The notes under the pieces are model-generated. The model was given only the letters and a program-made list of their open reading frames with translations. It did not search any database and had not been told where the DNA came from. A program made the position numbers and the translations under genes. A DNA stretch of 38,140 nucleotides, from contig CAISPG010000088.1 of NCBI GenBank assembly GCA_903887325.1, positions 1-38,140 on the forward strand, read 5' to 3'. Positions 1,723 through 31,208 of this stretch are shown here, piece by piece. The DNA is from an uncultured Burkholderiales bacterium (GTDB taxonomy: Bacteria; Pseudomonadota; Gammaproteobacteria; Burkholderiales; Burkholderiaceae_C). Each line of letters starts with the position of its first letter. Position 1 is the first letter of the stretch.

Positions 1723-1789
1723 AGCTTTTGGCAGGCCTGAGATATTCAATATAGAAAATAAAAACCCTCTGCAATTGAATTTGCAACAC

Positions 1790-1824
1790 ATAAAAAAATA
1801 CCCGACGCTTCAAAACGCCGGGCT
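1790..1824 (-). terminator. Rho-independent terminator behind the FKBP gene
   Basis: Read on the minus strand, arms CCCGGCG (1822-1816) and CGTCGGG (1807-1801) form a 7-bp stem with one G-U pair and an 8-nt loop, followed by TATTTTTTTA. It lies about 45 bases past the stop of the FKBP gene. Confidence 0.7.
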
Positions 1825-1869
1825 TTGTGGCATTGAAGCCGCAGTTCACCGTCTGATACGGGTAGCAAA

Positions 1870-2223
1870 TCAGTCTTCCACGCCCAGTAACTCGACCTCA
1901 AACACCAGGGTGGCATTGCCCGGTATCACCCCGCCCGCGCCGTAAGCGCCGTAACCCAGCTCCGGCGGTATCAGCAAAGTTCGCTTGCCGCCGACTTTCA
2001 TGCCTTGCACGCCTTCGTCCCAGCCTTTGATGACCATGCCTTGGCCCAAGCCGAACTCGAACGGGTCGTTGCGGTCCAGGCTGGAGTCGAATTTTTCGCC
2101 TTTTTCGCCGTCGCTCCACAACCAGCCGGTGTAGTGCACCGACACGTACTGACCGGCCACGGCCAGGTCGCCGTCGCCGGTGTGGGTGTCGTCATATTGC
2201 AAGCCGCTGTCGGTAGTAAGCAT
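1870..2223 (-). CDS. FKBP-type peptidyl-prolyl cis-trans isomerase
   Basis: This 117-residue single-domain FKBP catalyses prolyl cis-trans isomerisation in protein folding. Family landmarks are VSVHYTGWL near residue 30, FDSSLDR, the [20 protein letters not shown] core and the closing IPPELGYGA / [16 protein letters not shown] segment. These are the usual active-site aromatic and hydrophobic residues (Tyr, Phe, Trp, Ile, Tyr). No signal peptide or membrane anchor is present, so it should be cytoplasmic. The start is set by CAGGA about 8 bases before the ATG. It lies 54 bases after the Bug-type gene on the same strand and may share its transcript; a good terminator follows it. Confidence 0.95.
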
Positions 2224-2277
2224 GTTTGTTCCTGTGTATGTATGAAACGCAGCAGTGTAATTGCGCGCGCTGCGGCC

Positions 2278-3306
2278 TCAGGAATCGGCGGTAAAGCCCA
2301 CACGTTTGACGATAGGGCCCCAGTACTCGTAAAGGCGTCGCATTTCCTTGGCCATGTCGTCGCTGCTGCCGCCAACCGGTGTCAGGCCTTGCATGCCCAG
2401 GCCTTCGATGACCGACTTGTCTTTCAAGGCGGCATTGATGGCGGCGTTGGCAGCGGCCACCACATTTACCGGCGTTTTGGCGGGTGCGTAAAAGCCAAAC
2501 CATTCTTCAATGGTCAGCTCGGGAAAGCCTTGCTCGGCGAACGTAGGTATTTCCGGCGTAAACACCGAACGCGCTTTGCCCGAGACCGCCAGGATGCGCA
2601 ATTTACCGCCACGGTAATTGGCCAGAAAGTCGCCGTGCGGCGTGAACATGGAAGCGATTTGTCCGCCTATGACGTCTGCAATACCGGGCACCGAGCCACG
2701 GTAGGGCACGTGTTGCATGGCGACGCCGGTGTTCAGGCTGAGTTGCGCGCCCAGAAAATGCGGCGAAGAACCGGCGGCAGGTGAGGCGTAGTTAGCCCGC
2801 TCGGGATTGGCCTTGCACCAGGCGACAAAGTCTTTCACGGTTTTGACCATGGCCGGCACCATGGGCCCAACCGCCAGCCCGAAGGACAACACCGAGGCCA
2901 TGGCCACCGGCGCAAAGTCTTTGAACGGGTCGTAGCTGAGCGTGCGGTAGGTGTGCGGGTAAATCACCATCATGGAATACGGCGTCAGCAGCAGGCTGCT
3001 GCCGTCGGGGGCGGCGGCTTTCACGGTATCCACCGCGATGCGCCCGCCTGCGCCGGTTTTGTTGTCAACCATGGCGCCGTTGCGCGAATAGTTGCTGCCC
3101 GTGATTTTGTCGCCTATGCGCCGGCAGTTGATGTCAGCCGTGCCGCCGGCCGGAAACCCGCAAATGAATTTCACTTGTTCCAGCGGCAGCGCGCCGGTTT
3201 GTGCCAGCGCCGACCAGGGCGACAACGCAGCCGTGGCCGCTGGCAGCGCCAATGTTTGCAAAGCCTGACGGCGTGAGGGTGAGTTTGCCAAAGGGGCTGT
3301 CTTCAT
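2278..3306 (-). CDS. Bug/TctC family solute-binding protein
   Basis: A periplasmic binding protein of the tripartite tricarboxylate transporter (Bug) family, 342 residues from the ATG. The family is greatly expanded in Burkholderiales and binds carboxylates, aromatic acids or amino acids. The N-terminus carries a twin-arginine-like SRRQAL stretch at 11-16 and a hydrophobic segment ending ALAQ near 35, suggesting export. Family landmarks include FPAGGTADI, the NKTGAGGRIA loop, PDGSSLLL, and HVPYRGSVPGIADVIGGQI. No tctA or tctB membrane genes are nearby, so it is an orphan receptor, as is common for Bug proteins. An in-frame TTG at 3321 would add five residues; ATG at 3306 was preferred, but neither start has a good ribosome-binding site. 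Confidence 0.9.
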   Translation of the reverse strand: MKTAPLANSPSRRQALQTLALPAATAALSPWSALAQTGALPLEQVKFICGFPAGGTADINCRRIGDKITGSNYSRNGAMVDNKTGAGGRIAVDTVKAAAPDGSSLLLTPYSMMVIYPHTYRTLSYDPFKDFAPVAMASVLSFGLAVGPMVPAMVKTVKDFVAWCKANPERANYASPAAGSSPHFLGAQLSLNTGVAMQHVPYRGSVPGIADVIGGQIASMFTPHGDFLANYRGGKLRILAVSGKARSVFTPEIPTFAEQGFPELTIEEWFGFYAPAKTPVNVVAAANAAINAALKDKSVIEGLGMQGLTPVGGSSDDMAKEMRRLYEYWGPIVKRVGFTADS

Positions 3307-3387
3307 GGTGTGTTTTGCCAAAGATAGTTCATACGGAGATTATGTAAGCAGGCTTCAGCGAAGCAGTTGATCACTTACCCTGCGCTC

Positions 3388-6956: not shown

Positions 6957-7820
6957 ATGAAACACCAAGACTTGATCGCGATTGACATTCACACCCATGC
7001 AGAGGTCAGCTGCTGGAACCCGTTTGACAACTACGGCGAAGAGTACGACCGCGCCGCCGACAAATACTTCGGCTCGGACCGCCGCCCCACGATTGAAGAA
7101 ACTGTCGCTTATTACCGCGAACGCAAACTCGGGCTGGTGATGTTCACGGTGGACACCGAATCGCACATGGGCCGCAGGCGCATACCGAATGAGGAAATCG
7201 CCAAAGCCGCGCGCGACAACAGCGACATGATGATTGCCTTTGCCAGCATTGATCCGCACAAAGGCAAGTTCGGCGCGCGCGAAGCCGAGCGCTTGATCAA
7301 AGAAGAGGGCGTCAAAGGCTTTAAATTTCACCCGACCGCGCAAGGCTGCCACCCTTACGACAAAATGGCTTGGCCGATTTACGACGTGATCAACGAATAC
7401 AAATTACCCGCCATTTTTCACACCGGTCACAGCGGCATAGGCAGTGGCATGCGTTGCGGCGGCGGTTTGCGATTGGCCTACAGCAACCCCATGCATTTAG
7501 ACGATGTGGCTATCGATTGGCCGGACATGCAAATTGTCATGGCGCATCCCAGTTTTCCGTGGCAAGACGAAGCGCTGTCTGTTGCCATGCACAAACCGAA
7601 TGTGTGGATAGACATCTCCGGTTGGAGTCCTAAATACTTTCCAAAAAGTTTGATTCAGTACGCCAACACCTTGCTGAAAGACCGCGTGCTGTTCGGCAGC
7701 GACTATCCATTGATCACGCCAGAGCGCTGGATGAAAGACTTTGAAGTGGCAGGCTTCAAGCCCGAGGTGATGCCCGGGATATTGAAGGGAAATGCGGTGA
7801 GATTGCTCGGATTAGATTGA
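6957..7820 (+). CDS. CouO-like metal-dependent amidohydrolase (beta-ketoacyl-CoA hydrolase)
   Basis: A 287-residue TIM-barrel hydrolase of the amidohydrolase-2 family. Metal and catalytic positions are visible: His12 and His14 (IDIHTHA), His125 (FKFHP), His155 (IFHTGHSG), His197 (MAHPS) and Asp249 (LFGSDYP). The sequence closely resembles proteins annotated as 4-hydroxyphenyl-beta-ketoacyl-CoA hydrolase (CouO). These carry out hydrolytic carbon-carbon cleavage (retro-Claisen) of an aryl-beta-ketopropionyl-CoA in phenylpropanoid catabolism. It is divergent from a feruloyl-CoA-synthase-like ligase and a crotonase, exactly the preceding steps. The intervening dehydrogenase is not in the window. 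The family role is from memory of the family; the substrate is inferred. The ribosome-binding site is weak. Confidence 0.8.
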   Translation: MKHQDLIAIDIHTHAEVSCWNPFDNYGEEYDRAADKYFGSDRRPTIEETVAYYRERKLGLVMFTVDTESHMGRRRIPNEEIAKAARDNSDMMIAFASIDPHKGKFGAREAERLIKEEGVKGFKFHPTAQGCHPYDKMAWPIYDVINEYKLPAIFHTGHSGIGSGMRCGGGLRLAYSNPMHLDDVAIDWPDMQIVMAHPSFPWQDEALSVAMHKPNVWIDISGWSPKYFPKSLIQYANTLLKDRVLFGSDYPLITPERWMKDFEVAGFKPEVMPGILKGNAVRLLGLD

Positions 7821-7864
7821 GTTTTTTTAGGTGAATGCTTTTTCATAATCCCTCTTTTGGGGGA

Positions 7865-7894
7865 TTGCGAGGGAAATTACTCGGGTGCTATTAT
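7865..7894 (+). promoter_or_regulatory. Possible promoter of the flotillin gene
   Basis: TTGCGA (7865-7870) and TATTAT (7889-7894) are 18 bases apart in the 128-base gap before the flotillin start. Fit to the sigma-70 consensus is moderate (four of six in each box). The rest of the gap holds a short AATCCC/GGGATT inverted repeat near 7847-7865 without a T-run. Confidence 0.35.
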
Positions 7895-7948
7895 GAATTT
7901 GTCCCTACACTGGGATGTTGGTTCTGATGATGTACTGGAGTAACTCGC

Positions 7949-9559
7949 ATGATTGTGCTGGCCTGGTTGTTTGGTGTGGTTGTCCTGGTGGTCGTGATCG
8001 CGGCACTGGTGACTTTTCTAAATCACTTCTATCGCAAGTCCAGTCGGGACGTTGCCATCATCCGCACCGGTTTCGGTGGGCAAAAAACGCTTATCTCCGG
8101 CGGTTGCCTCTCCTTACCGTTCCTACACAAAATAGACGAAATTAACCTTCGCACCATCAGGGTGGAAGTGCGTCGGGTGGCTGAAAAATCTTTGATCACC
8201 GAAGACCGCATGCGTGTGGATGCCGAGCTGGAGTTTTATGTGCGAGTGCAGCCCACCATTGAAGGTGTTGCCACCGCTGCTCAGTCCCTCGGTTCCAAGG
8301 CATTCAATCCTGAAGGCATGCGCAATTTGCTGGAAGGCCGTTTCATAGATGCGGTGCAAGCGGTTGCAGCCAGTCGCACCATGGACCAAATCCACGAAAA
8401 GCGTTCCCAGTTTGTGTCTGACATTTCTGCCTTGCTCAAGGGCAATTTGGCGGAAAACGGTGTGGTGCTGGACTCAGTGTCCCTAACCCGTTTGGACCAG
8501 ACCTCGTTCTCTGCGCTGGATGAAAACAACGCGTTCAATTCTGTCGGTATGCGTCGCCTGGCAGAAATCATTGCAGTCAACCGCAAAAAGCGTGTGCAAA
8601 TTGAATCTGAAGCGGATATCTCTGTGCGCCAAACCCAGTTGGAAGCCACCAAGCAACGCTTGTTGTTGAACCAGCAGGAAGAAGAAGCGCAAATCAGCCA
8701 GCGTTTGGAGTTGGAAAAAATCAAAGCCCAAAGTGATGCAGAAACTGCGCGTTCGCGCGAAGAATCCCAAGCCGCCACTGAAGCCGCGCGTATCACTCGC
8801 GAGCAAGAAACACGCATGCGCGAGATTGAAAAGCAGCGTGAACTGCGCAAATCAGAAATCGAAGCGCAACTCAACTCTGAGGTGCGTAAGTTGGAAAGCT
8901 CCATCACCTTGTCTTCTAAGCAAGCCGAAGAAGCGCATGCGCAAGCCGCCGCAGAACTCGCTCGCACCGAGGTGATATTGGCGCAAGAAAAAGTTCAAAC
9001 TGACCGTGAACGCGCCGTGGCTGACCGTTCATTGGAAATGGCTGTCAAACGCGTGAAAGAAGCCGGCGAAGTGGCCGAAGCCAACGCCGCCACTGAAGTG
9101 ACCGTGTTGCTCAAACGCGCCAAGGCCGAAGCCGAGGCCACGCATACACGCGCAGCCGCTGAAAAAGCCCGCATGCTGGCTGAGTCTGAAGGTTCGCGTG
9201 CATTGATTGATGCTGAAAACGCTCTCAGCACCCCGGTGCTGCACATGAAGCTGGAGCAATACCGCTTAGACCGTTTGCCCGAAATCATGTCGCACATGAT
9301 GAAGCCTATCGAAAAAATCGACAGCATTCGCATCAACCATGTCAGCGGCTTTGGTGCCACCAACGGTGCTGGTGGTGCAGGTGCCGCCGGTGCCAACGAC
9401 GGTGGTGCAGGCAAACCTCCAGTCACGCAAGTCATGGACAGCATTTTGGGCATGGCGTTGCAACTGCCTGCGCTCAAAAGCATTGGTGACCAGATAGGCG
9501 TTGATTTGTCTGGCTCTATTGATGCCGCATCCGGCAAACCTAGCGACAAGAAAGCTTGA
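7949..9559 (+). CDS. Flotillin-like SPFH/band 7 membrane protein
   Basis: This 536-residue protein has an N-terminal membrane segment at about 3-24 and an SPFH/band 7 domain at about 30-200 (IRTGFGGQKTLISGG, ITEDRMRVDAELEFYVRV). A long Glu/Ala/Arg-rich coiled coil follows at about 220-440, then a Gly/Ala-rich linker and a short C-terminal tail. This is the plan of the YqiK/flotillin group that oligomerises into membrane microdomain scaffolds. GGAG lies about 9 bases before the ATG. The usual NfeD-type partner is absent. The gene ends 70 bases before the amide importer operon on the same strand, so it may be co-transcribed, though a weak hairpin lies between. A role in organising the transporter is only a suggestion. 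Confidence 0.88.
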   Translation: MIVLAWLFGVVVLVVVIAALVTFLNHFYRKSSRDVAIIRTGFGGQKTLISGGCLSLPFLHKIDEINLRTIRVEVRRVAEKSLITEDRMRVDAELEFYVRVQPTIEGVATAAQSLGSKAFNPEGMRNLLEGRFIDAVQAVAASRTMDQIHEKRSQFVSDISALLKGNLAENGVVLDSVSLTRLDQTSFSALDENNAFNSVGMRRLAEIIAVNRKKRVQIESEADISVRQTQLEATKQRLLLNQQEEEAQISQRLELEKIKAQSDAETARSREESQAATEAARITREQETRMREIEKQRELRKSEIEAQLNSEVRKLESSITLSSKQAEEAHAQAAAELARTEVILAQEKVQTDRERAVADRSLEMAVKRVKEAGEVAEANAATEVTVLLKRAKAEAEATHTRAAAEKARMLAESEGSRALIDAENALSTPVLHMKLEQYRLDRLPEIMSHMMKPIEKIDSIRINHVSGFGATNGAGGAGAAGANDGGAGKPPVTQVMDSILGMALQLPALKSIGDQIGVDLSGSIDAASGKPSDKKA

Positions 9560-9575
9560 TGTCGCAGCGTTTTTG
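9543..9575 (+). terminator. Weak hairpin with T-run after the flotillin gene
   Basis: GCGAC (9543-9547) pairs with GTCGC (9561-9565), followed by AGCGTTTTTG. The stem is only 5 bp with a 13-nt loop and overlaps the flotillin stop codon, so termination would be partial at best. Confidence 0.3.
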
Positions 9576-9629
9576 TCTTTTCGTTTCCCCAACCCACGAG
9601 CGATTCGCTCAATTTTCAGGAGTAACACC

Positions 9630-10865
9630 ATGAGCTTTTCACGCCGCCAATTTTTGGCAGGAACTGGTTCAGCCGGTCTGACCGCACTGGGCGCCACTAT
9701 CCCTTTTGAGATGGTCTTGGCACAGGGCGCACCCATCAAACTGGGTTCGATTCTGGACAATTCAGGCAACCTGGACGCTTACGGCAAGCCCATGGTGATG
9801 GCCACCACCTTGGCAGCAGAAGAAATCAACGCCGCTGGTGGTTTGCTTGGTCGCAAAATCCAAGTCGTGCAATATGACTCGCAATCTGACATTGCCCTCT
9901 ACACCAAATACGCACAGCAACTGACACGTGACGACAAAGTCGATGTCACCCACGGCGGCATCACATCCGCTTCACGTGAAGCGATTCGCCAAACCTTCAA
10001 TCGCGCCAATTCACTCTACTTCTACAACGTGTTGTACGAAGGCGGCGTGTGTGACCGCAACACAGTCTGCACTGGCACGACACCGGCGCAAGCGGTCGAG
10101 CCGATTGTGGAAGTGGCATTGAAGCAATGGGGCAACACGGCGTATGTGCTGGCAGCCGACTACAACTACGGCCAAATCACTTCCAAGTGGCTGACCCACT
10201 ACATCACCAAAGGTGGCGGCAAAGTGCTGCAAACCAATTTCTTCCCGCTCGACGTCTCCGACTTCGGCTCCACCATCGCCAAGATTCAGCAAGAAAAACC
10301 CAAGTTTGTCGTCGCAGCTTTGGTGGGCGGTGCGCACATGTCCTTCTTCCGTCAATGGGCGGCATCCGGCATGAACAAAAAAATCCCTCTGTGTTCCACC
10401 ACTTTCGGTGTGGGCAACGAGCACTTAGCCCTGTCAGCCGCAGAAGGCGATGGCATTTTGATCGCTGGAAACTACAGCCAGGAAAACGCCAACCCGTCTA
10501 ACAAAGACTTTTTGGCCAAGTGGGCCAAGCGTTTCGGCGACACCAAACTGGTTCACGAAATTGCTGTCTCTCAATACCAAGGCATCATGTTGTGGGCGGC
10601 TTGCGTCAAGAAAGCCGGTTCACTGGATCGCGAAAAAATGCTGGCTGCTATCGAGTCCGGTGTCAGCATCCAAGGCCCGGGCGGCACAGTCACCCTGGAC
10701 CCGAAAACCCACCACGCCATTTTGGACATCAACGTGATGGAAGTGAAAAACCAGAAGCTCACCATCAAGCAACAGTTCAAAGCACGTCAGCCTTCAGACA
10801 CGCTGCAATTCTGTGACTTGCAAAAAAATCCGAAAGACAACAAGCAATACGAAGTCAAAATTTAA
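9630..10865 (+). CDS. Urea/amide-type ABC transporter substrate-binding protein (Tat-exported)
   Basis: The 411-residue protein is a type I periplasmic binding protein of the Leu/Ile/Val-urea-amide (Peripla_BP_5-like) group. SRRQFLAG at 4-11 is a clear twin-arginine signal. Ligand-domain features include GSILDNSGNLDAYGKP, the AEEINAAGGLLGRKI helix, and FYNVLYEGGVCDRNTVCTG, a segment typical of UrtA/FmdD-like receptors rather than LivJ. CAGGAG at 9618-9623 sets the start; the frame stays open upstream to 9501 but without a better signal. It heads the operon, and amidases downstream suggest an amide or urea-like ligand. A strong hairpin directly after the stop should keep this gene expressed above the permeases. 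The exact ligand is unknown. Confidence 0.9.
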   Translation: MSFSRRQFLAGTGSAGLTALGATIPFEMVLAQGAPIKLGSILDNSGNLDAYGKPMVMATTLAAEEINAAGGLLGRKIQVVQYDSQSDIALYTKYAQQLTRDDKVDVTHGGITSASREAIRQTFNRANSLYFYNVLYEGGVCDRNTVCTGTTPAQAVEPIVEVALKQWGNTAYVLAADYNYGQITSKWLTHYITKGGGKVLQTNFFPLDVSDFGSTIAKIQQEKPKFVVAALVGGAHMSFFRQWAASGMNKKIPLCSTTFGVGNEHLALSAAEGDGILIAGNYSQENANPSNKDFLAKWAKRFGDTKLVHEIAVSQYQGIMLWAACVKKAGSLDREKMLAAIESGVSIQGPGGTVTLDPKTHHAILDINVMEVKNQKLTIKQQFKARQPSDTLQFCDLQKNPKDNKQYEVKI

Positions 10866-10871
10866 AGTCGG

Positions 10872-10910
10872 ATCGCGTCCCGGTTCAAGCGAGCCGGGAC
10901 GCTTTTGTTT
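10872..10910 (+). terminator. Strong hairpin (attenuator) between binding-protein and permease genes
   Basis: GCGTCCCGG (10875-10883) and CCGGGACGC (10894-10902) are perfectly complementary. Inner pairing of TTC with GAG extends the stem to 12 bp with one wobble and an AAGC loop. TTTTGTTT follows. It looks like a full intrinsic terminator inside the operon, so it probably acts as a partial terminator or 3' stabiliser for the receptor message. Confidence 0.8.
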
Positions 10911-10922
10911 CAGAGAGTACAC

Positions 10923-11789
10923 ATGGATTACGCGGCGGTTGTTCTTCTTGAAATCATTTACATGATTGCTTTTTTGGTGCTGACCAGCGCCGGGTTGGCA
11001 GTGGTATTTGGCATGATGCGGGTGATCAATCTGGCGCATGGTGAGTTCGTCATGATTGGCGGTTACACCACGATTGCATGCGCCAAGGCCGATATCAATA
11101 TTTATTTCGCCATGCTGGTGATTGCACCGCTGGTGGTTGGCATTTTGGGTTTGTTGGTAGAACGCTTGGTGGTGCGACAGTTGTATGGCCGCATGATTGA
11201 CACCATGCTTGCTACCTGGGGCTTGTCGCTGCTGATGGTCGGCATCGTCACCTTTATTTTTGGCAACACGGCGGTCAGTGTGCCAGCTCCCATTCCCGGC
11301 TATGAGTTGGGTGACTTTCAAATGGGTGGTTACAACCTGTTCATCATTGGCATTGCCACCTTGCTGATTATTTGCATGTGGCTGGTGATGCGCTTTACCC
11401 GTTTGGGTTTGATCGCACGCGGTGCGATGCAAAGTGCAGATGTGGCCTCGGCGCTCGGATACGACCCCAAGCGCGTGTACATGTGGACATTCACCGTGGG
11501 GGCTGCTTTGTCCGGTTTAGCTGGCGGTGTACTCGCACCTTTGACCGGTTTGCTGCCTTCTTCCGGCGGTGCTTATATTGCCAAGGCGTTCATCACGGTT
11601 ATCACTGGCGGGGCCGCTGTCATCACAGGCACCTTGTCCAGTTCAATTTTGTTTGGCACCATTAACCAAGTGGTGTCATTCGGTTCGACACCCGTGATTG
11701 GCGAAATCGCCATGCTGGCACTTGCCGTGGTCTTACTTCGCCTCATGCCCCAAGGCATCACGGGCCGCTTTTTCCGTAACGCGCCATGA
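10923..11789 (+). CDS. LivH/UrtB-type ABC permease
   Basis: A polytopic inner-membrane permease of 288 residues with the INLAHGEFVMIGGY motif near residue 37, the hallmark of LivH/UrtB channels. The SALGYDPKRVY segment in the later cytoplasmic loop is the coupling region that contacts the ATPase. About eight hydrophobic segments are visible. The ATG at 10923 was chosen over an upstream in-frame TTG at 10905 because AGAGAG precedes it and the upstream extension overlaps the hairpin. Its stop overlaps the next ATG by four bases. Together with the next gene it forms the transmembrane channel of the operon's importer. Confidence 0.92.
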   Translation: MDYAAVVLLEIIYMIAFLVLTSAGLAVVFGMMRVINLAHGEFVMIGGYTTIACAKADINIYFAMLVIAPLVVGILGLLVERLVVRQLYGRMIDTMLATWGLSLLMVGIVTFIFGNTAVSVPAPIPGYELGDFQMGGYNLFIIGIATLLIICMWLVMRFTRLGLIARGAMQSADVASALGYDPKRVYMWTFTVGAALSGLAGGVLAPLTGLLPSSGGAYIAKAFITVITGGAAVITGTLSSSILFGTINQVVSFGSTPVIGEIAMLALAVVLLRLMPQGITGRFFRNAP

Positions 11790-12880
11790 TCGGAGAAGCT
11801 GCCAAATTCGCCAGCGCAGGGCGCACCCACTGGGGCTGGATCATCGCCATCACCTTGCTGCTGGTGTTGCTGCCAGCGGTGTATGACACCAACACGCCTA
11901 CGCTCTTAGGCATCTGGGCATTGTTCGCTTTGTCGCTGGGCTTGATGTGGGGCTATGCAGGTATTTTGAGTTTTGGCCATGCTGCGTATTTCGGACTGGG
12001 CGCCTACACCTATGCCATCACCTCGATGAACTTAGGTGAAAGTACAGCGGCTTGGATGCTGGCGATTTTGTTGCCCGCGTTTGTCGCTGCTTTGATCGGT
12101 GCCATGATGTTTTACGGGCGCATCAGCGATGTCTACATGGGTGTGATCACCTTGGTGTTCTCGCTCATCATGGCCAAGTTCATGGGGGCCACCGCAGGTG
12201 ACGCATACAGCATAGGCAACGCAAGACTGGGCGGGTTTAACGGCATTCCGGCCTTCCCCATATTGAATGTGCCGGGAGACCCCTCCACACCGATATTCGG
12301 CACTGCTTTGTATTACGTGGTGTTAGCGTGTTTGGTGGTCTGCTATTTGGTCTCGCGCTGGGTCTTGTCCAGCGCCTTTGGCCGGGTCTTGTTGGGCATT
12401 CGTGAAAACGAAGCGCGTATTGAACTGCTGGGCTACAACGCACCGGCCTATAAAACCGCCATCTTTGCTTTGTCAGCGGCCATGGCGGGTATGGCGGGTT
12501 GTTTATTCGCCAGTTGGGCAGAGATCGTCACACCGGCTTTGTTCGGTTTGGGCCAATCGGTGGAAGTCATTATTTGGGTGATCGTCGGTGGTCTGGGCAC
12601 ATTGATGGGTCCTGTCATTGGCGCGGTGTTGCTGGGCACCATGAAGTTATTGCTCGGCGGCCAAACCTTCATCGACAACTCTTTGGTCATCGGTGCCATT
12701 TTGGTGTTGGTGGTGTTGCTGTTGCCGCGCGGTTTGTTGCCCACACTCATGGGCTGGCGCAAACAGCAAGGACAGCGCAGCGTCAGCCGTGCCCGCAGTA
12801 ACAGCATGCGCAGACGCGGCGGCGAACGTCGTCAACAACGCACAGCGCAGGCCACAGACAAGCCGGGGCAGGGATCATGA
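11786..12880 (+). CDS. LivM/UrtC-type ABC permease with basic C-terminal tail
   Basis: The 364-residue second permease subunit has the LivM/UrtC pattern: WGYAGILSFGHAAYFGLGAY near residue 55, an intracellular coupling helix (IRENEARIELLGY, around 205) and GGLGTLMGPVIGA near the end. After the last membrane segment, a polar, strongly basic tail of about 40 residues continues (rich in Arg, Gln and Ser). It is longer than usual for the family. Both ends overlap neighbours by ATGA, so translation is coupled with the first permease and with the ATPase. The tail may contact the cytoplasmic ATPases or the fused amidase, but this is speculation. Confidence 0.92.
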   Translation: MIGEAAKFASAGRTHWGWIIAITLLLVLLPAVYDTNTPTLLGIWALFALSLGLMWGYAGILSFGHAAYFGLGAYTYAITSMNLGESTAAWMLAILLPAFVAALIGAMMFYGRISDVYMGVITLVFSLIMAKFMGATAGDAYSIGNARLGGFNGIPAFPILNVPGDPSTPIFGTALYYVVLACLVVCYLVSRWVLSSAFGRVLLGIRENEARIELLGYNAPAYKTAIFALSAAMAGMAGCLFASWAEIVTPALFGLGQSVEVIIWVIVGGLGTLMGPVIGAVLLGTMKLLLGGQTFIDNSLVIGAILVLVVLLLPRGLLPTLMGWRKQQGQRSVSRARSNSMRRRGGERRQQRTAQATDKPGQGS

Positions 12881-13602
12881 GTGAAATGATTGTTGAAACC
12901 CGTGACTTGTCGATGCGCTTTGGCGGCGTGCTGGCCGTCAACAACGTCAATTTCAATTTGCGTGAACGTGAGTTGCGTTGTTTGATCGGTCCCAACGGGG
13001 CAGGCAAAAGCACCTTGTTCAAATGTATGACCGGGCTGCATCAAATCAACCACAGCAATGGTCGCGTGTTTATTCGCGGTCACGATGTCACCGGTTGGCG
13101 ACCGCATGAAATTGTGCAACTCGGCGTTGGTATCAAAACACAAGTACCGTCTGTCATGAACGGTTTGACCGTTTGGGAAAACCTGTGGTTATCAGCCCGT
13201 CGCATACATGGCAAAAGCGGTGCTTCACCCGAGGTTGACCGTGTCATCGAAGAGTTGGGTTTGCAAACCCATATGCGTCGCAGCGTTGGCGAACTGGCGC
13301 ATGGTCAACGACAAATTGTCGAAATCGGTTTGGTCTTGTGTCAGCGTCCCAAACTGGTGTTGCTGGACGAGCCGGCGGCGGGCATCACCGGCGCTGAAGC
13401 CGACCGCTTGGTGGAGTTGATTCACGGCATCAACCAGCAAGCCGCAGTGGTGGTGGTTGACCACGATATGAATTTTGTCCGCATGTTGGGCGGCTCCGTC
13501 ACCGTGTTGCACCAAGGTGCGGTGCTGATGGAGGGTGACACCGATGCGGTGATGAACAACGCCAAAGTGCGTGAGGTCTACATTGGTAACCGGGCGAAAT
13601 GA
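12877..13602 (+). CDS. LivG/UrtD-type ABC transporter ATPase
   Basis: The first nucleotide-binding subunit, 241 residues. Walker [10 protein letters not shown] is at 38-46, the signature motif reads LAHGQRQ (140-146), Walker [11 protein letters not shown] has Asp164 and Glu165, and the switch His is in VVDHDMNF (His196). The LAHGQRQ form and the VVVDHD ending are typical of LivG/UrtD rather than LivF. It lies between the second permease and the second ATPase with ATGA overlaps on both sides. It powers import as a heterodimer with the next gene product. Confidence 0.93.
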
Positions 13603-16094
13603 GCATGGCTGAGTCACACAACACTAATGCTGACCATTTTGAGCGGGCCGATGTGGTGCTGCAAGTCGCCGACTTACGTGCAGGCTATGGCCGCGTACCT
13701 GTTCTGCACGGCGTCAATTTGCAAATCCACGAAGGCGAGGCCGTCGGTATCGTCGGCCACAACGGCATGGGCAAAACCACTTTGCTCAAAGTCATCATGG
13801 GGCTCATGCCTTCCACGGGCGGGCGCATTGAACTTGATGGCACAGAGGCCACCGGTTCTGCTGCGCACCAGCGCTCGCAAATGGGCATAGGCTATGTGCC
13901 GCAAGGTCGCGGCATTCTGCCGGGTCTGACGGCCCTTGAAAATTTACGCATGGCCTGGCGTGAAGACATAGGCGAAACCGAAGAACAAGCGGTGGAGCGG
14001 GTGGTCGATCAATTTCCGCGCTTGCGCGTGTTGCTGGACCGCAAAGGGGGTTCACTCTCTGGCGGTGAGCAACAAATTTTGGCCTTGGCACGGGCTTTGG
14101 TGCCCAAGCCTTGGTTGTTGTTGTTGGACGAGCCCAGTGAAGGCATACAACCGTCCATCGTGCAAGAGATAGGCAGCACCTTGGCCCGCTTGCGTGATGA
14201 ATTCGGATTGGCGTTGATCATCGTTGAACAAAACCTGGACTTGGTGCTGGATGTGGCGCACCGCATTGTGGTGTTTGAGCGCGGCACCATCTTGAAAGAA
14301 ATGCATGCCAGCGAATTGCGCGGCGGCGGCCTGAGCGAATTGCTGGGCATGGGTTCAGCACGCATGACGCACAGTCCGCATTCAGCGCAGGCCAAAACCG
14401 CAGCAACAAACTCGCGCCAAGCCAGCCATCCGCATACAGCCGCTGCCTCGCCTTCAGCGCAGACCAGCCCAGACCATGCAGCCACCCACCAGCGTCGGCC
14501 TGCAAACACCACATCAACCAACAAGCGGTCGCAGTCAACCGCCATCGAAGCAAAGGCCACCGGCCCCGGGGGAATCATGTCTACTGTCAAACGTCCTACT
14601 GTCGATCAGATGCACGCCATCGTCGAATCACTGCACATGAACATGTCTTCACGTGAAGTGGCCGAGTACCTTGAAATCATGGAAGGCACGTTTCAGTCTT
14701 ACGACCGTTTGACCCAGTTGCCCGACAACTTGCCGCCTGTGCGTTACCCGCGCACGCCCGGTACCAAGCCCAGTGCGGCTGACAACCCTTTGAATGCCTG
14801 GGCGGTCAAGAGTGAAGTGCGCGGTGCAGCACACGGCCCCTTGTCCGGCAAACGCGTGGTGCTCAAAGACAATGTGTGTCTGGCGGGTGTGCCCATGATG
14901 AACGGCGCATCTTCACTGGAAGGTTATGTGCCGGATGTGGATGCCACTCTGGTCACACGCATTCTGGATGCCGGTGGCACCATCGCTGGCAAAGCGCACT
15001 GCGAGTATTTTTGTTTGTCCGGCGGCAGCCACACCAACGCCGCTGGCCCGGTTCACAACCCCTACCGCTATGGCTATTCAGCAGGCGGCTCTTCATCAGG
15101 CTCTGCCGCCTTGGTGGGCGCAGGTGAACTCGATTTGGCCATCGGTGGTGACCAAGGCGGTTCCATCCGCATGCCAGCTTCCTGGTGCGGCATTTACGGC
15201 ATGAAGCCCACGCACGGCTTGGTGCCTTACACCGGTGTGATGCCCATCGAAGCCACGATTGACCATGCGGGCCCCATGACAGCCACTGTGGCTGACAACG
15301 CTTTGTTGCTCGAGGTGATCGCGGGTGCCGATGGTTTGGATCCGCGCCAGTACAGCCCGCGTGTGGACCGTTACACCGCAGCCTTGGGACGCGGTGTGTC
15401 CGGTTTGCGCATTGGTGTGTTGTTGGAAGGTTTCAACCGTGCTGACAGCGAGCCCGATGTAGACCAGAAAGTGCGTCAAGCAGCTGACCGTTTGCGCAAC
15501 ATGGGTGCGATTGTGGAAGACGTGTCAGTGCCTATGCACATGGACGGCCCGGCCATTTGGACCGCGATTGCTGTGGAAGGTTTGCAAGCGCAAATGATGC
15601 ACGGCAACGGCATGGGCTTTAACTGGAAAGGCATGTACACCACCAGTTTGCTCGACGCGCATTCCGCTTGGCGCTCGCGTGCCGATGAGTTGTCCCCCTC
15701 GCTCAAAGTGTCGATGATGGCCGGTGAATATTTCATGAAAAACTACCGGGGCCATTTTTACGCCAAAGCGCAAAACTTAAGCCGTGTGTTGGCCAAGGCC
15801 TACGACGACGCCTTATCCCGTTACGACTTGTTGCTGTTGCCAACCTTGCCCATGAAAGCCACGCCATTGCCTCCGGCCAATGCATCGCTCAAACTCTATA
15901 TTCAACGTGCCTTGGAAATGTTGGGCAACACCTGCCCCATGGATGTCACCGGTCACCCCGCCATGAGCGTGCCTTGCGGCATGTCCAATGGTTTGCCCAT
16001 CGGCATGCAATTGATGGCCAAGCACTGGGAAGAATCCACCATTTACCGCGCTGCCCATGCATTTGAGCAAGCCGGTGACTGGCGCAATTTCTAA
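13599..16094 (+). CDS. Fused LivF/UrtE-type ABC ATPase and signature-family amidase
   Basis: One uninterrupted 831-codon frame. Residues 18-250 are a complete LivF/UrtE ATPase: Walker [10 protein letters not shown] 53-61, signature LSGGEQQ 153-159, Walker B LLLLDEP ending at 179, and IVEQN at 208-212. Residues 252-326 are a Ser/Thr/Ala/His/Gln-rich linker without hydrophobic clusters. Residues 327-831 are a complete amidase-signature enzyme with the Lys423-Ser498-Ser522 triad ([24 protein letters not shown]). Counted from Met327 these become 97/172/196, one off the 96/171/195 remembered for the Rhodococcus nitrile-pathway amidase, its apparent closest type. ATPase and amidase normally exist as separate proteins. 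Met327 is preceded by GGGGGAA, so a free 505-residue amidase may also be made. The tether would place hydrolysis at the inner mouth of the importer. Confidence 0.88.
14568..14579 (+). promoter_or_regulatory. Internal ribosome-binding site and start for a free amidase
   Basis: Inside the fused gene, GGGGGAA (14568-14574) stands just before an in-frame ATG (14577-14579) at exactly the point where homology to stand-alone amidases begins. Spacing is short but usable. This either marks the former separate start or produces an additional unfused amidase. Confidence 0.45.
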
Positions 16095-16133
16095 TTCATC
16101 AGCTCAAACACAGACAGCAGGAAACAGACCAAG

Positions 16134-17921
16134 GTGTCCCACAATCCATTTCTGTCAGATTGGGTCAAAGGCGGAACAGATCAACGCTTGAGCCCGCCCG
16201 GTTCGCTGTCCTATGTGGCCGGGCCGACCGATGCATCTTTGCATTTCATGACCATCCCGCAGTTGTTAGACCGCGCGGTGGCCAGGCACGGTTCTCGGGA
16301 CGCAGCGGTGTTTGTGGCGCAAAACCAGCGTTTAAGTTGGTATGACTTGCAACAACAGGCTGACAACATGGCGGCTGCTTTGTTGTCCATGGGCATACGC
16401 CGTGGCAACCGAGTCGGCATTTGGGCACCGAACCGTTTGGAATGGTTGCTGACCCAGTTCGCCACTGCCCGCATCGGTGCGGTGTTGGTCAACATCAACC
16501 CGGCATACAAAAGCAGTGAACTTGAATATGCATTGAACAAAGTGCGTTGCCGCATGTTGGTGATGGCGCGTGGCTACAAAACCAATAACTACTTGGACAG
16601 CTTGCGTCAGCTTGCCCCGGAAATTGACCGACCCGGGCAAGCAGGCGATTTGACTTCGTTAAAGCTTGAGCATTTGAAGCATGTCATTGTGTTGGATGAT
16701 TTGTCTTTGCCTGCGCATGAGGCAGCCAAGCAGGCTGTGCCGCCGCGTGCCATGCGCTTCAAAGAATTGTTGCAACAAGCCGGACCCGCACAACACGCGC
16801 GTTTGAAAGATTTGTCAGCGGCGCTGGACCCGGATGATGCGATCAACATCCAATTCACCAGCGGCACCACCGGCCACCCCAAGGGGGCCACCTTGTCGCA
16901 TTTCAATATCGTCAACAACGCGCGTTTTGCGGCCAAGTCCATGGCATTGACCCAGGACGACCGCCTGTGTATTCCGGTGCCGCTCTACCACTGTTTCGGC
17001 ATGGTGCTGGGTGTGTTGACTTGCACGGCAGCGGGCGCGGCCATGGTGTTTCCGGGTGAAGGTTTTGATGCAGCTGCCACGCTCAAAGCCGTGGTCAAGC
17101 AAAAATGCACGGCCTTGCATGGCGTGCCCACCATGTTTGTGTCCATGCTGGCCGAGCCGGGTGTGGCGAACATGGATTTCAGCCTCTTGCGTACCGGCAT
17201 CATGGCCGGTGCCCCGTGCCCGATTGAGACTATGCAAGCGGTGATTCGCACTTTGAATATGAAGCAAATCACCATCGGCTATGGCATGACAGAAACTTCG
17301 CCACTGTCGTTCCAGTCGCATGTGTCAGACCCGGTTGAACGGCGTGTGTCTACGGTGGGTCGCATACAACCGCATGTACAAGCCAAGGTGGTGGATGAGC
17401 ATGGCCGCATGGTCCCGGTGGGCACACCAGGCGAGTTGTGCGTGCGTGGCTATTTGGTGATGCGTTCCTATTGGGAAGACCCGCAGCAAACGGCAGATGG
17501 GATTGACCAGGCCGGATGGATGCACACCGGCGACCTGGCCACCATTGATGCGCAAGGCTATTGCAATATCGTCGGTCGTGTCAAAGACATGTTGATTCGC
17601 GGTGGCGAAAACGTGTTTCCGCGTGAGATTGAACAGTTTCTGATGCAGCACCCCAAGGTGCTGGACGTTCAAGTGTTCGGTGTGCCAGATGCCAAATACG
17701 GCGAAGAGATTGCAGCCTGGTTGGTGTTAAAGCCCGGCCAGTCAGCCGAAGCACAAGAGTTCATCGACTTTTGCCGCTCCAGTTTGGCGCATTACAAAAC
17801 ACCACGCCATGTGCGTTTGGTCGGTGAATTTCCGCTGACTGCCACTGGCAAACCGCAAAAATTTGTCATGCGCCAACGCATGGTTGAAGAGCTCGGTTTG
17901 CGCTCACCGCAAACCGCCTGA
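16134..17921 (+). CDS. AMP-forming acyl-CoA ligase (fatty-acyl-CoA synthetase-like)
   Basis: This 595-residue adenylate-forming ligase has FTSGTTGHPKG at 241-251, YGMTETSP at 383-390, HTGDLA around 464-469 and the catalytic Lys573 in TGKPQK. The overall pattern, including IWAPNRLEWL and LYHCFGMVLG, is that of medium-chain or general fatty-acyl-CoA synthetases. It should activate the acid released by the amidases to a CoA thioester. Start codon is GTG at 16134, with AGGAAACAG about 10 bases upstream. It lies 39 bases after the fused gene and 23 before the next amidase, clearly within the operon. Acid chain type cannot be told from sequence. Confidence 0.9.
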   Translation: MSHNPFLSDWVKGGTDQRLSPPGSLSYVAGPTDASLHFMTIPQLLDRAVARHGSRDAAVFVAQNQRLSWYDLQQQADNMAAALLSMGIRRGNRVGIWAPNRLEWLLTQFATARIGAVLVNINPAYKSSELEYALNKVRCRMLVMARGYKTNNYLDSLRQLAPEIDRPGQAGDLTSLKLEHLKHVIVLDDLSLPAHEAAKQAVPPRAMRFKELLQQAGPAQHARLKDLSAALDPDDAINIQFTSGTTGHPKGATLSHFNIVNNARFAAKSMALTQDDRLCIPVPLYHCFGMVLGVLTCTAAGAAMVFPGEGFDAAATLKAVVKQKCTALHGVPTMFVSMLAEPGVANMDFSLLRTGIMAGAPCPIETMQAVIRTLNMKQITIGYGMTETSPLSFQSHVSDPVERRVSTVGRIQPHVQAKVVDEHGRMVPVGTPGELCVRGYLVMRSYWEDPQQTADGIDQAGWMHTGDLATIDAQGYCNIVGRVKDMLIRGGENVFPREIEQFLMQHPKVLDVQVFGVPDAKYGEEIAAWLVLKPGQSAEAQEFIDFCRSSLAHYKTPRHVRLVGEFPLTATGKPQKFVMRQRMVEELGLRSPQTA

Positions 17922-17944: not shown

Positions 17945-19345
17945 GTGACTGAAGACCAACTTGCCTTTTTAGATGCCTATTCATTGGCGGGGTTGTTGCA
18001 CAGTAAAAAACTGTCCTGCGTTGAACTCACGCAAATGATGCTGAGCCGCATAGAGCGCATCGACAAGCGTTTGTTGTCCTATGCCACCATCACACATGAC
18101 ACGGCTTTGAAGCAGGCGAGAGACGCACAAGCCATGATCATGCGTCGCCAGATTTTGAGTCCCTTGCACGGCGTGCCCATCGCGTTCAAAGACCTGTGCT
18201 ACACCAAAGACATCCCCACCGCCGCTGGCATGCCGATGATGCGCGACTTCAAACCCAGCTATGACGGCACCGTGGTCAAGCGCCTGCGCGAAGCAGGCAC
18301 GGTGATGCTGGGCAAACTCACCATGACTGAAGCGGCGTTTGCCGACCACCACCCGGATGTGCCGCCACCCATCAACCCGTGGCATGACGACCATTGGTCA
18401 GGTGCCTCTTCAAGTGGCTCTGGCGTGGCCGTCGCAGCCGGTTTGTGTTTTGCAGCCATTGGCACAGACACGGGTGGCTCCATCCGTTTTCCATCGGCTG
18501 CCAACGGTGTCACTGGTCTGAAACCTACGTGGGCACGTGTGCCTGTGCACGGCGCGTTTGAGTTGGCCGCTTCGTTAGACCACATCGGTCCGATGGCACG
18601 TACCGCCATGGACTGCGGTCACATGCTGGGCCTGATGGCAGGCGCAGACGCAGACGATAGCGTGGCCTTGCATGCCCCCGTGCCCGACTATGTGTGTGGC
18701 GACAACACACAGTTAAGCGGTTTGCGCATAGGCTTTGACCCGGACTATTGCAGCGGCTTGGATGCGGTCATGCAGCAAGCCGTGCAATCTGCTTTTGAGG
18801 TGTTGCAATCATTGGGCGCAGACATGCGCCATGTGCGTTTTCCCGATGTGTCAGATGCCGTCGCTGATTGGGGCACAGCATGTGCCGCCGAAACCGCAGT
18901 GGCCCACGAGCCTTGGCATCCTAAGAACAAACATTTGTACGGCCCGGGCTTGGGCGGCTTGATTGAATTCGGTCGTTCCATTTCTGCGGTGGAGATGCAA
19001 AAAATCTGGTTGCGCCGACGCGCCTTCACCGGTGCGGTGCGCGGGTTTTTCCAGAACTGCGATATGTTGTTGATCCCGGCGCAACCCATGGCTTCACCCA
19101 CCAGCCAAGAGATGTCGGTCATCGGCACGGTGCCGTCTGAGCTCGCGCGGTTGATCAAATACACCGCGCCGTTTGACATGAGCGGCAACCCAACCATTAC
19201 CTTGCCAGCCGGGTTCACGGCCAAGCAGACACCGGTCGCCATACAACTGGTGTCGGCGCATTTGAACGAAGCCACGCTGATTCGTGCCGGCAGTGCGTTC
19301 CAGCGGGTGACCGATTGGCACTCGCGTTCACCCTCGCGGCTTTGA
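17945..19345 (+). CDS. Amidase signature family hydrolase
   Basis: The second amidase of the operon, 466 residues. Triad positions are Lys82 (IAFKD), Ser155 (GASSSGSG) and Ser179 (GTDTGGSIRFPSA). The segment LHGVPIAFKDLCYTKDIPTA is typical of the GatA/aryl-amidase branch, but the protein stands alone without GatB or GatC, so a catabolic amidase is more likely than tRNA amidation. The GTG start at 17945 has a poor ribosome-binding site, though homology begins close to it. It is only distantly similar to the fused amidase, so the operon carries two non-redundant enzymes, possibly for two amide bonds or two substrate classes. Confidence 0.9.
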   Translation: MTEDQLAFLDAYSLAGLLHSKKLSCVELTQMMLSRIERIDKRLLSYATITHDTALKQARDAQAMIMRRQILSPLHGVPIAFKDLCYTKDIPTAAGMPMMRDFKPSYDGTVVKRLREAGTVMLGKLTMTEAAFADHHPDVPPPINPWHDDHWSGASSSGSGVAVAAGLCFAAIGTDTGGSIRFPSAANGVTGLKPTWARVPVHGAFELAASLDHIGPMARTAMDCGHMLGLMAGADADDSVALHAPVPDYVCGDNTQLSGLRIGFDPDYCSGLDAVMQQAVQSAFEVLQSLGADMRHVRFPDVSDAVADWGTACAAETAVAHEPWHPKNKHLYGPGLGGLIEFGRSISAVEMQKIWLRRRAFTGAVRGFFQNCDMLLIPAQPMASPTSQEMSVIGTVPSELARLIKYTAPFDMSGNPTITLPAGFTAKQTPVAIQLVSAHLNEATLIRAGSAFQRVTDWHSRSPSRL

Positions 19346-24529: not shown

Positions 24530-25936
24530 TCAGTTGCTCGGTTGGAATTCAGGCATCACAAACGGTTGCACCGACTCATAGGCACGCGCGGCGCGCAACA
24601 CCTTGGCGTCTGCATATTTGCCGCCAACCAATTGCATGGCCACCGGCAAGCCATCCACAAAACCGCAGGGCACGGTGGCGGTTGGTTGTTGCGTCAGATT
24701 GAACGGGTAAGTGAACGGAGACCATTCCCACCAGCGTTTGCGCGGACCGCCCGGCGGTACTTCGTGACCGACTTCAAACGCGGTGATCGGCATTTGCGGT
24801 GTGATCAGCAAGTCGTAGGTCTGGTGCAACTGGTTCATGCGCCGTCCCAGAATTTCACGATCGCGTTCTATGCGGCGGTATTGCAAAGCTGAGAGGCCAA
24901 AGCCCGGCTCGGCCAAGGCCAGCATGGCGGGCTCAACCAAAGCACGTTGCGCGTCTGACATGGGTTCAATCGCTAAGGCGAGTGCCACGGCCCACAGCGG
25001 TTGCATGATGCTGATCGGGTCTTGCAAGCCCAACTCAATGGTGTCTACTTGCGCGCCCAGCGAAAGAAACACATCCAGCTGTTTTTCAATGGCACTTGCC
25101 ACTGCGCTGTCCACATTGGCAAAGCCCATGTCCGGGCTGTAGGCGATGCGCCAACCGCGCACGCCGTCGTTCAAGCCAGTCTGCACATCCATGCCCGGCA
25201 TGGGTGTGTGGTACCAATCACGCGCATCGGGCGCGGCGATCACGGTTTGCATCAAAGCGGCATCGGCCACGTTGCGGGTGATGGGGCCTTGGTGCCACAA
25301 ACTCAGTGCGGGCGAATGGGGATGCACCGGCACCAGCCCCCAAGTGGATTTGAATCCGAACACGCCGCAAAACGCCGACGGTATACGGATAGAGCCGCCG
25401 CCGTCGGTAGCGATATGCATGGGGCCGACGTTCAAGGCTGCCGCCGCCGCCGCGCCGCCGCTGCTGCCGCCGGTGGTCATGGCCGGGTTCCAGGGGTTGC
25501 GGGTAATGCCGCTCAAGGCGCTGTCGGTCACGCCTTTCCAACCAAATTCAGGCGTGGTGGTTTTGCCGATGATGATGGCACCGTGCTCTCGCATGCGAGC
25601 CACAGGCGGGCCGTCTTCTGTCCATGCTTGGTTCGGGTCTATGGTCAATGAGCCGCGCAAGGTCGGCCAGTCTTTGGCCAGAATCAAATCTTTGACCGTG
25701 GTGGGAATGCCGTCCACCAAACCTGCGGGTTGGCCTGTGAGCCAACGTTGTTCGCTGGCACGTGCCGCTTCCATGGCGCGTTCTTCGTCGTGGACACAAA
25801 ACAGATTGAACACTGGATCGACTTCAGCGATGCGCTGAAACACCTGCTGCGTGACTTCCACCGGAGAAGCCTCGCGCGTGCGGTAAAGCTCAAGCAAACG
25901 CGTTGCCGACAGGGAGAGCAAATCGTTCTTCACCAT
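24530..25936 (-). CDS. Amidase signature family hydrolase (third copy)
   Basis: A 468-residue amidase with triad Lys82 (TTVKDL), Ser158 (GGSSGGAAAA) and Ser182 (TDGGGSIRIPSAFCG). The SPVEVTQQVFQRI N-terminus and PFTYPFNLTQQPTATVPCG C-terminal region are typical of the broad AmdA/GatA-like group. ATG at 25936 follows a weak GGAA; an upstream TTG (25969) would start inside a 14-base palindrome and is less likely. It lies between the IorB gene, with a hairpin-rich gap, and the OxlT-like transporter. Since molybdenum hydroxylases turn N-heterocycles into lactams, an amide-opening role after IorAB is conceivable, but unproven. Confidence 0.9.
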   Translation of the reverse strand: MVKNDLLSLSATRLLELYRTREASPVEVTQQVFQRIAEVDPVFNLFCVHDEERAMEAARASEQRWLTGQPAGLVDGIPTTVKDLILAKDWPTLRGSLTIDPNQAWTEDGPPVARMREHGAIIIGKTTTPEFGWKGVTDSALSGITRNPWNPAMTTGGSSGGAAAAAALNVGPMHIATDGGGSIRIPSAFCGVFGFKSTWGLVPVHPHSPALSLWHQGPITRNVADAALMQTVIAAPDARDWYHTPMPGMDVQTGLNDGVRGWRIAYSPDMGFANVDSAVASAIEKQLDVFLSLGAQVDTIELGLQDPISIMQPLWAVALALAIEPMSDAQRALVEPAMLALAEPGFGLSALQYRRIERDREILGRRMNQLHQTYDLLITPQMPITAFEVGHEVPPGGPRKRWWEWSPFTYPFNLTQQPTATVPCGFVDGLPVAMQLVGGKYADAKVLRAARAYESVQPFVMPEFQPSN

Positions 25937-25960
25937 AATTTTTCCAAGGCAATGCGACTC

Positions 25961-25974
25961 CGGTTGCAACCGGT
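25961..25974. promoter_or_regulatory. Perfect 14-bp palindrome upstream of the amidase gene
   Basis: CCGGTTGCAACCGG is fully self-complementary and lies 25-38 bases before the amidase ATG, followed on the minus-strand upstream side by an AT-rich AATAAATAAATAAAAA stretch. The position fits an operator; no cognate regulator is identified. Confidence 0.4.
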
Positions 25975-29144: not shown

Positions 29145-29774
29145 CTAGAAATGCACCAAGCCACGCCTGGCCGCCAGCGCGGTCGCCTCTGCGCGGCTGG
29201 TCACATCGAGTTTGGCGAACAGGCTTTTGAGGTGGCTCTTGACCGTGGATTCGCTGATGTGCAGGCTCAGGCCTATGGCTTTGTTGCTCTTGCCCTCGGC
29301 CAGCAGTTGCAGGATTTGAATTTCCCGCTCGGTCGGCGTGCCTTCGCCGACGCGTTGCACCAGCTTGGCAGCGATCTTGGGTTGCAAATAACCTTCACCG
29401 GCTTTGACCGCGCGTATGCAGCGAAACAGTTCTTCGGGCTGCACGTCTTTGAGTAAATACGATTTCGCCCCGGCGCGCAAACACGAGTACACGTCTTCGT
29501 CATGGTCAAACGTGGTCAACACAATCACGGCGACCTTGGGGTCTTCGACGTGCATTTTGCGCAGCGCGTCCAAGCCGCCGAGCTCGGGCATGCGCAAGTC
29601 CATCAGCACCACATCGGGTTTGAGCTTGCGCCAAAGCTCTATGGCTTCGAGACCGTTACCGGCTTCGCCGACCACTTGGATACCGTCTTCCATATTGAGA
29701 ATAGCGACAAGTCCGCGCCGCACCAAAGACTGGTCGTCGGCGATCAGTACACGTATCGATTTAGATGAAGGCAT
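29145..29774 (-). CDS. NarL/LuxR-type response regulator
   Basis: The 209-residue protein has a receiver domain with the acidic pair Asp13/Asp14, phospho-acceptor Asp59 (VVLMDLRMP) and the SYLLKD lysine. A C-terminal LuxR helix-turn-helix follows (PTEREIQILQLLAEGKSNK, then ISESTVKSHLKSLFAKLDV). It should activate or repress transcription when phosphorylated by the kinase encoded just upstream (26-base gap). Its place at the end of the urt-fmd-amiE block suggests control of amide use, although iorAB, starting 170 bases downstream, is another possible target. All functional residues are present. Confidence 0.95.
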   Translation of the reverse strand: MPSSKSIRVLIADDQSLVRRGLVAILNMEDGIQVVGEAGNGLEAIELWRKLKPDVVLMDLRMPELGGLDALRKMHVEDPKVAVIVLTTFDHDEDVYSCLRAGAKSYLLKDVQPEELFRCIRAVKAGEGYLQPKIAAKLVQRVGEGTPTEREIQILQLLAEGKSNKAIGLSLHISESTVKSHLKSLFAKLDVTSRAEATALAARRGLVHF

Positions 29775-29800
29775 GGGTACGACTCTAACAGCGGGCGTTG

Positions 29801-31183: not shown

Positions 31184-31208
31184 CTCTTCTTCTCCCCTTG
31201 TAAAGAGA

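Follow-up and report, generated by a model that had tools for sequence, protein, structure and literature searches.

Why should the ATPase of an importer and an amidase be encoded in one frame, and what would such a gene produce? The question is raised by a 38,140-nucleotide stretch from an uncultured Burkholderiales bacterium (contig CAISPG010000088.1, assembly GCA_903887325.1; hereafter the window), in which positions 13599-16094 of the plus strand form a single uninterrupted open frame of 831 amino acids, beginning as the ATPase of an ATP-binding cassette (ABC) transporter and ending as an amidase (Table 1). The answer favoured here on balance is one coding frame with two probable products, an importer-tethered amidase and a free one, which would together serve amide uptake and hydrolysis. 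The gene and its neighbours are best read as a membrane-tethered module for the import, hydrolysis and coenzyme A (CoA) activation of an organic amide.

The fused protein matched Pfam ABC_tran at residues 36-180 (113.9 bits; cut-off 25) and Pfam Amidase at residues 405-815 (319.9 bits; cut-off 27), while residues 329-830 scored 811.2 bits against the NCBIfam amidase subfamily NF005565/PRK07235 (cut-off 545), to which the amidase thus belongs. K423, S498 and S522 are invariant in an alignment of 34 fused proteins and, together with the PF01425 match, identify a signature-family amidase. An earlier note, made from the letters of this DNA, had described just such an ATPase and amidase in one frame with these three residues intact, and had contrasted it with an unfused ATPase of normal length in the same window (33894-34583, 229 amino acids); both descriptions are borne out. 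Its assignment of the ATPase to the LivF/UrtE type holds in a looser sense: the protein is UrtE-like rather than UrtE, because its score against the UrtE model TIGR03410 (252.4 bits) falls under the cut-off of 285.8. The Walker A, LSGGE and Walker B patterns were found by motif scan in all 44 fused loci described below, and the H-loop position reads EQN or EQS in every one of them, which is normal for LivF-type ATPases. The nearest solved amidase is 3a1k (476.5 bits over residues 349-824), and S522 aligns with the residue at which PDB chains 3a1k and 3a1i differ; 1ji0, an ABC transporter, is the nearest solved ATPase listed.

A total of 142 loci were gathered, of which 15 were dropped before counting (L002-L008 and L024, and L009-L015, which are copies of named records); the contig scan of genomes contributed the best 80 of 136 loci. 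The joining of the two domains in one protein, for which the earlier note had suggested a search, does recur elsewhere, isolates and a complete plasmid included. It was found as a single frame in 44 of the 127 classified loci, in beta-, gamma- and alphaproteobacteria; in the others a separate ATPase lies just upstream (28), no ATPase stands there (51), or the locus is cut by the end of the contig or locus (4). One of these last, L106, is not a cut fusion: the locus ends there, and the gene upstream is a second, divergent amidase.

The two domains are joined by a linker of about 75 residues in the window protein. Across the fused loci the linkers consist to 66% of Ala, Pro, Ser, Thr, Gly and Gln. 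The predicted local distance difference test score (pLDDT) of a structure model is mostly about 90 in the ATPase part and below 50 at residues 259-284 and 286-327; the model is modest as a whole (mean pLDDT 71.7, predicted template modelling score 0.52) and was used solely for linker disorder. In six groups of near relatives the ratio of nonsynonymous to synonymous substitution rates (dN/dS) is 0.38-0.79 in the linker (0.44 in the window's clade) compared with 0.02-0.20 in the flanking domains (0.06 in the ATPase of the alpha group), and the synonymous divergence of the linker is broadly like theirs. Among the 44 fused loci the linker contains no in-frame stop, whereas its two alternative frames have 70 and 65 stops (in 28 and 34 loci), a difference that with the dN/dS values rules out a chance open frame in GC-rich DNA. 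From the dN/dS, the zero in-frame stops and the low pLDDT, the linker is probably disordered and, although translated, weakly constrained.

Such a linker might suggest that the joint frame serves expression alone, the full-length chain being cut in the linker, or being of little matter, so that what the cell uses is an ordinary ATPase plus free amidase at a set ratio. The disorder and near absence of protein-level sequence constraint would suit this explanation, as would the existence of relatives with separate genes and the case of L081, which seems to place the two parts in different frames while keeping a strong signal for the amidase. It is, however, an unlikely if serious alternative, since the frame has been kept in 44 of 44 loci under purifying selection (dN/dS below 1) and an ATGA-type overlap, as used elsewhere in the operon, would have sufficed for coupling.

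The evidence for a second product lies at the end of the linker, where the amidase's own ATG is retained in all 44 fused genes and is preceded in 41 of them by a strong Shine-Dalgarno (SD) sequence, the two together marking a probable in-frame internal start. In the window gene the SD of this ATG is stronger than that at any of 35 other in-frame ATGs. Anti-SD pairing of -4.4 kcal/mol or stronger occurs in those 41 loci (mean over the fused loci -6.7), compared with 19% of 1308 other in-frame ATGs of these genes (mean -2.3) and 14% of 2521 linker codons. The result survives clustering at five identity thresholds, by which L041 and L134, apparently one genome, were also handled; at 75% identity six of seven representatives retain it, and 1 of 20000 control draws was equally low. 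Subclades differ in how the SD is spelled (GGGGGA, GAGGTGA, AAGGAG and GAGAGGA) and in the residues encoded by it. Within the window's clade, the eight codons before the ATG show synonymous differences of 0.075, compared with a mean of 0.42 in amidase windows, a value equalled by none of 481 amidase windows and by about 0.4% of ATPase windows; the constraint reaches somewhat upstream (0.143) and downstream (0.19). A hairpin behind this constraint is ruled out, for 196 of 200 shuffles fold more strongly than the RNA around the internal start. As for an internal promoter in place of an internal start, a weak scan found no promoter-like site on the plus strand near 14577. The conserved ATG, the strong SD and the synonymous constraint together suggest that the gene probably makes both the fusion and a free amidase. 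The earlier note, which missed this conserved start, had set a lone 90-kDa band against separate proteins; as the internal start probably supplies free amidase too, this would be a false choice.

The ATG and its SD could instead be relics of a once-separate amidase gene, in which case the fusion would be the only product and all the amidase tethered. All 28 separate relatives with an ATG have an SD and ATG at the same place (96% of them strong), so that inheritance is possible, and three fused loci have lost the strong SD. A relic of this kind is nevertheless distinctly unlikely: the surrounding linker has diverged in length (29-133 codons across the fused loci) and in sequence, yet the SD persists in wording that differs by subclade, and synonymous sites are constrained exactly at the internal start.

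The joined amidase might also be mainly a regulator, sensing intracellular amide or acid and gating the ATPase. Regulatory C-terminal domains are known on the import ATPases MalK, MetN and ModC, and the amidase occupies the corresponding C-terminal position on an import ATPase. The invariance of the Lys-Ser-Ser residues and a long, flexible linker of variable length, which is unsuited to rigid gating, nonetheless make a regulatory role very improbable.

That the fusion reflects an assembly artefact, or a stop codon lost in one genome, deserves practically no credence and is ruled out by its carriers: many are metagenome assemblies, but they also include isolates and a complete Sulfitobacter plasmid (L141) on which it is annotated as one coding sequence (WP_152467583.1, 'amidase'), and it occurs at 55-97% identity in three classes. 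The fusion-bearing records include Limnohabitans sp. DM1, Hydrogenophaga intermedia MER 62 and Variovorax boronicumulans Xaverov 112. An Aureimonas plasmid (L142) encodes the ATPase and amidase as two genes; three of the 89 matching plasmid records cover at least 80% of the query. On both plasmids a protein with a substrate-binding domain, possibly a ligand-sensing regulator, is annotated upstream (2157-3320 in the fused L141, 2225-3268 in the unfused L142). In the window's genus a strong match at the set E-value was found in 16 of 84 genomes, with the full-length fusion in seven of them (the window's own included) and an eighth holding it in two contig-end pieces. The family sample yielded the full-length fusion in 2 of 250 genomes (any match in eight) and the phylum sample in 1 of 397, the window's own (any match in 25); a second full-length match in the phylum sample (G415) has an internal stop, and its ATPase and amidase are separate. 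The ATPase-amidase fusion is thus rare but recurrent.

The fused gene also travels with constant companions, of which the flotillin gene upstream had escaped the earlier note. Among the 46 of 127 loci with at least 5.4 kb upstream, an iterated profile search found a flotillin in 31 of 32 fused loci and in none of 14 separate ones. The profile search was used since tblastn with the window flotillin as query had found one in only 4 of 35 fused loci with flank, misses that a Pfam search made evident. Given 40 loci (27 fused, 12 separate and one without ATPase), that Pfam search placed Flot within the locus range in 25 of the 27 fused loci and none of the 12 separate ones, a reading that assumes matching contigs, since contigs there bear numbers; the two fused exceptions are L036 and L041, the match of the latter lying at the end of another contig. 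In the window's genus a flotillin is present in all eight genomes with the fusion, compared with 7 of 76 without. Downstream, counting loci with more than 1.5 kb available, an acyl-CoA ligase follows 35 of 37 fused genes, 1 of 17 separate ones and none of 19 loci without ATPase; the lone separate locus is L081, itself a member of the fused clade. L036 lacks both flotillin and ligase, and L059 lacks the ligase. Since fusion, flotillin and ligase all belong to one clade, the block appears to be a linkage kept over long divergence and not a case of independent co-occurrence.

An amidase tree was built with 113 rows, 38 of them fused. One supported clade of 49 rows holds every fused row, along with five rows without ATPase, four cut and two scored as separate (L073 and L081). 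In relatives outside this clade the ATPase and amidase are separate neighbours. L073 has its D and E ATPase genes themselves broken across frames. In L081 the ATPase (823-1944) and amidase (1712-3220) lie in different overlapping frames with the strong SD and ATG of the amidase kept, an arrangement that may be a natural split or an assembly error. A Cupriavidus amidase (L071, 3553-5061) also stands among the fused ones in the tree, with a binding-protein-like gene upstream instead of an ATPase. The tree, whose root was not inferred, needs four changes of state, for which one or two origins of the fusion and a few losses would be the simple reading.

The two-product reading may be set out as follows. 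Translation from 13599 would give an ATPase-linker-amidase chain of 831 residues. In an ABC importer of the amide type this chain would take the place of the UrtE-like motor, its flexible linker keeping an active amidase tethered to the cytoplasmic side of the transporter. From an additional, internal ribosome-binding site (14568-14577) would come a free amidase of 505 residues, which could pair with the tethered copy instead of cross-linking two transporters, the nearest solved amidase being presumably a homodimer. Imported amide may then be hydrolysed near its point of entry, possibly by channelling, and the resulting acid could be converted to its CoA ester by the next-encoded ligase. The earlier note had allowed one or two amidase copies per transporter. 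One is the likelier, as the fused ATPase would most likely pair with the neighbouring UrtD-like ATPase, which keeps an H-loop His (DHD) unlike the EQN or EQS of the fused protein in all 44 loci. Its proposal of capture, cleavage and trapping of the acid keeps its force in spirit, the neighbourhood of importer, amidase and acyl-CoA ligase fitting import followed by hydrolysis and trapping.

Several points weigh against this account. Three fused loci, L050, L070 and the complete plasmid L141, have a weak SD or none before the ATG, in the window the ATG stands close to its SD, 4 nt after the G run, and the synonymous-site test spans just the seven sequences of the window's clade. L073 and L081 have ATPase and amidase in different frames despite their place in the fused clade, and L071 in the same clade has no adjacent ATPase. 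The chemistry does not require tethering, since unfused relatives carry it out with separate proteins. The importer subunits score under all urea-transporter cut-offs and do not fix the substrate. As fusion, flotillin and ligase belong to one clade, their co-occurrence may also be shared descent.

The flotillin may cluster or enclose the importers. A dome over a membrane patch, enclosing importers whose tethered amidase is paired with a free one and with the ligase in or at the dome, is speculative and on present evidence improbable; equally doubtful is its corollary that cleavage of the amide and capture of the acid as its CoA ester precede any leakage of amide, acid or ammonia. The basic residues that follow the single N-terminal hydrophobic segment are the sole hint, and suggest that such a dome would lie on the cytoplasmic side. 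The available text of PMC11260169 describes human flotillins as forming a closed cone on the cytoplasmic face, likely a diffusion barrier. Bacterial SPFH genes are often paired with NfeD, and in Pseudomonas aeruginosa most such genes lack a conserved genomic context, as given in the accessible portion of PMC13086221; no NfeD occurs among the Pfam-annotated genes of the window.

Table 1. The fused gene, its parts and the neighbouring features of the window, with the basis of each assignment.
Feature	Position	Strand	Basis
Promoter-like site just 5' of the flotillin gene; only plus-strand one in 7800-16300	7865..7894	+	Consensus scan, weak
Flotillin; SPFH and Flot domains, N-terminal hydrophobic segment	7949..9559	+	PF15975 Flot 118.8 bits (cut-off 27); PF01145 Band_7 57.6 bits (cut-off 23.6)
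Substrate-binding protein, urea/amide-binding type; twin-arginine-like N-terminus	9630..10865	+	Peripla_BP_6; TIGR03669 324.7 bits, below cut-off 494.8
UrtB-like permease (mechanical open reading frame; real start perhaps later)	10905..11789	+	BPD_transp_2; TIGR03622 227.2 bits, below cut-off
UrtC-like permease	11786..12880	+	BPD_transp_2; TIGR03727 261.6 bits, below cut-off
UrtD-like ATPase, expected to pair with the fused one	12877..13602	+	TIGR03411 243.1 bits, below cut-off 304.1
Fused gene: UrtE/LivF-like ATPase, linker and amidase	13599..16094	+	Open frame; Pfam ABC_tran and Amidase over cut-off
ATPase part, residues 1-250; Walker A, LSGGE signature and DEP Walker B intact	13599..14348	+	Motif scan, pLDDT
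Linker, residues 251-326; low-complexity, predicted disordered	14349..14576	+	pLDDT, dN/dS, stop counts
SD-like GGGGGA before the internal start, short spacing to ATG	14568..14573	+	SD duplex -8.6 kcal/mol
Amidase part, residues 327-831; internal ATG 14577 would also yield it as a free enzyme	14577..16094	+	NF005565; ATG kept 44/44
Acyl-CoA ligase (AMP-binding), directly 3' of the fused gene	16134..17921	+	Pfam AMP-binding 325.7 bits

The fused gene lies in a co-directional run of flotillin, binding protein, two permeases, UrtD-like ATPase, fused gene, acyl-CoA ligase, second amidase, second ligase and thiolase, the UrtD-like ATPase gene and the fused gene overlapping by ATGA. With a type-I periplasmic binding protein, two BPD_transp_2 permeases and two ABC_tran proteins, adjacent, co-directional and past their Pfam cut-offs, the system is an importer of the HAAT/LivFGHM type in the broad sense. 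It does not qualify as a UrtABCDE urea transporter, as the best urt-type scores of its binding protein, permeases and UrtD-like ATPase all fall under the cut-offs. The PDB relatives of the binding protein include urea-binding proteins and AmiC, but a substrate cannot be named from relatives, since the urea, formamide and AmiC-type proteins are merely distant ones. The promoter scan was weak, with 3 sites found compared with 4.2 expected in shuffles. A GC-rich hairpin of 12 pairs, with a T-rich stretch after it, lies between the genes for the binding protein and the permease (10875-10902) and would reduce downstream expression. Two further unfused signature-family amidases are encoded at 17945-19345 (plus strand) and 24530-25969 (minus strand), and the region 31209-38057 (minus strand) encodes another ABC importer of the urea type, this one unfused, along with a CN_hydrolase and an acetamidase/formamidase of the FmdA family. 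The window thus contains two neighbouring clusters for amide use, either of which could be regulated by the response regulator and histidine kinase encoded between them (29145-31330, minus strand).

Physical coupling of an importer to a cargo-consuming enzyme has often been proposed and has seldom been fixed in one polypeptide. The existence of sister groups that lack the fusion, beside the clade that has it, opens the coupling of transport and metabolism to test, and for a bacterial flotillin the fixed operon supplies a concrete candidate client.

The titles and abstract openings of the searched literature yielded no description of an ATPase-amidase fusion, and the known systems nearest to it each share some of its features. 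The signature amidase 3a1k/3a1i, which we take to be that of Rhodococcus, is of the same NF005565 subfamily and is the best solved relative, but it is a free enzyme without ATPase. Peptidase-containing ABC exporters carry a cargo-acting hydrolase within the transporter polypeptide, in their case a cysteine protease domain on the membrane-spanning half of an exporter, whereas the amidase of the window system sits on the ATPase of an importer; in the fused protein Pfam shows only ABC_tran, Amidase and a sub-threshold AAA_21, so it is not such an exporter. The SctQ gene gives a full-length SctQ and a C-terminal internal-start product needed for assembly, as reported in the available part of PMC4295842. 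SctQ and SctQC, like the proposed fusion and free amidase, come from one gene as a longer and a shorter product that work jointly, though they are neither enzyme nor transporter and their short product is proven, while that of the fused gene is inferred. With the flotillin cages the window flotillin shares the Flot and SPFH domains; its partner is an importer operon. There is a likeness also to the importers of urea and short-chain amides (UrtABCDE, and FmdDEF with the formamidase FmdA), which have the same five transporter parts and an amide hydrolase nearby; amiE, fmdA, fmdB and urtABCDE stand together in one cluster in the text available from PMC13209695. There the hydrolase is a separate gene of another family (FmdA, AmiE), and the window's own 31209-38057 cluster is of this unfused kind, whereas in the system described here a signature amidase is joined to the ATPase and accompanied by a flotillin and a CoA ligase. 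The locus is a genuine, conserved variant of the urea/branched-chain-type importer in which the ATPase bears the hydrolase, a free product is probably made as well, and genes for a flotillin and a CoA ligase are linked to the fusion.

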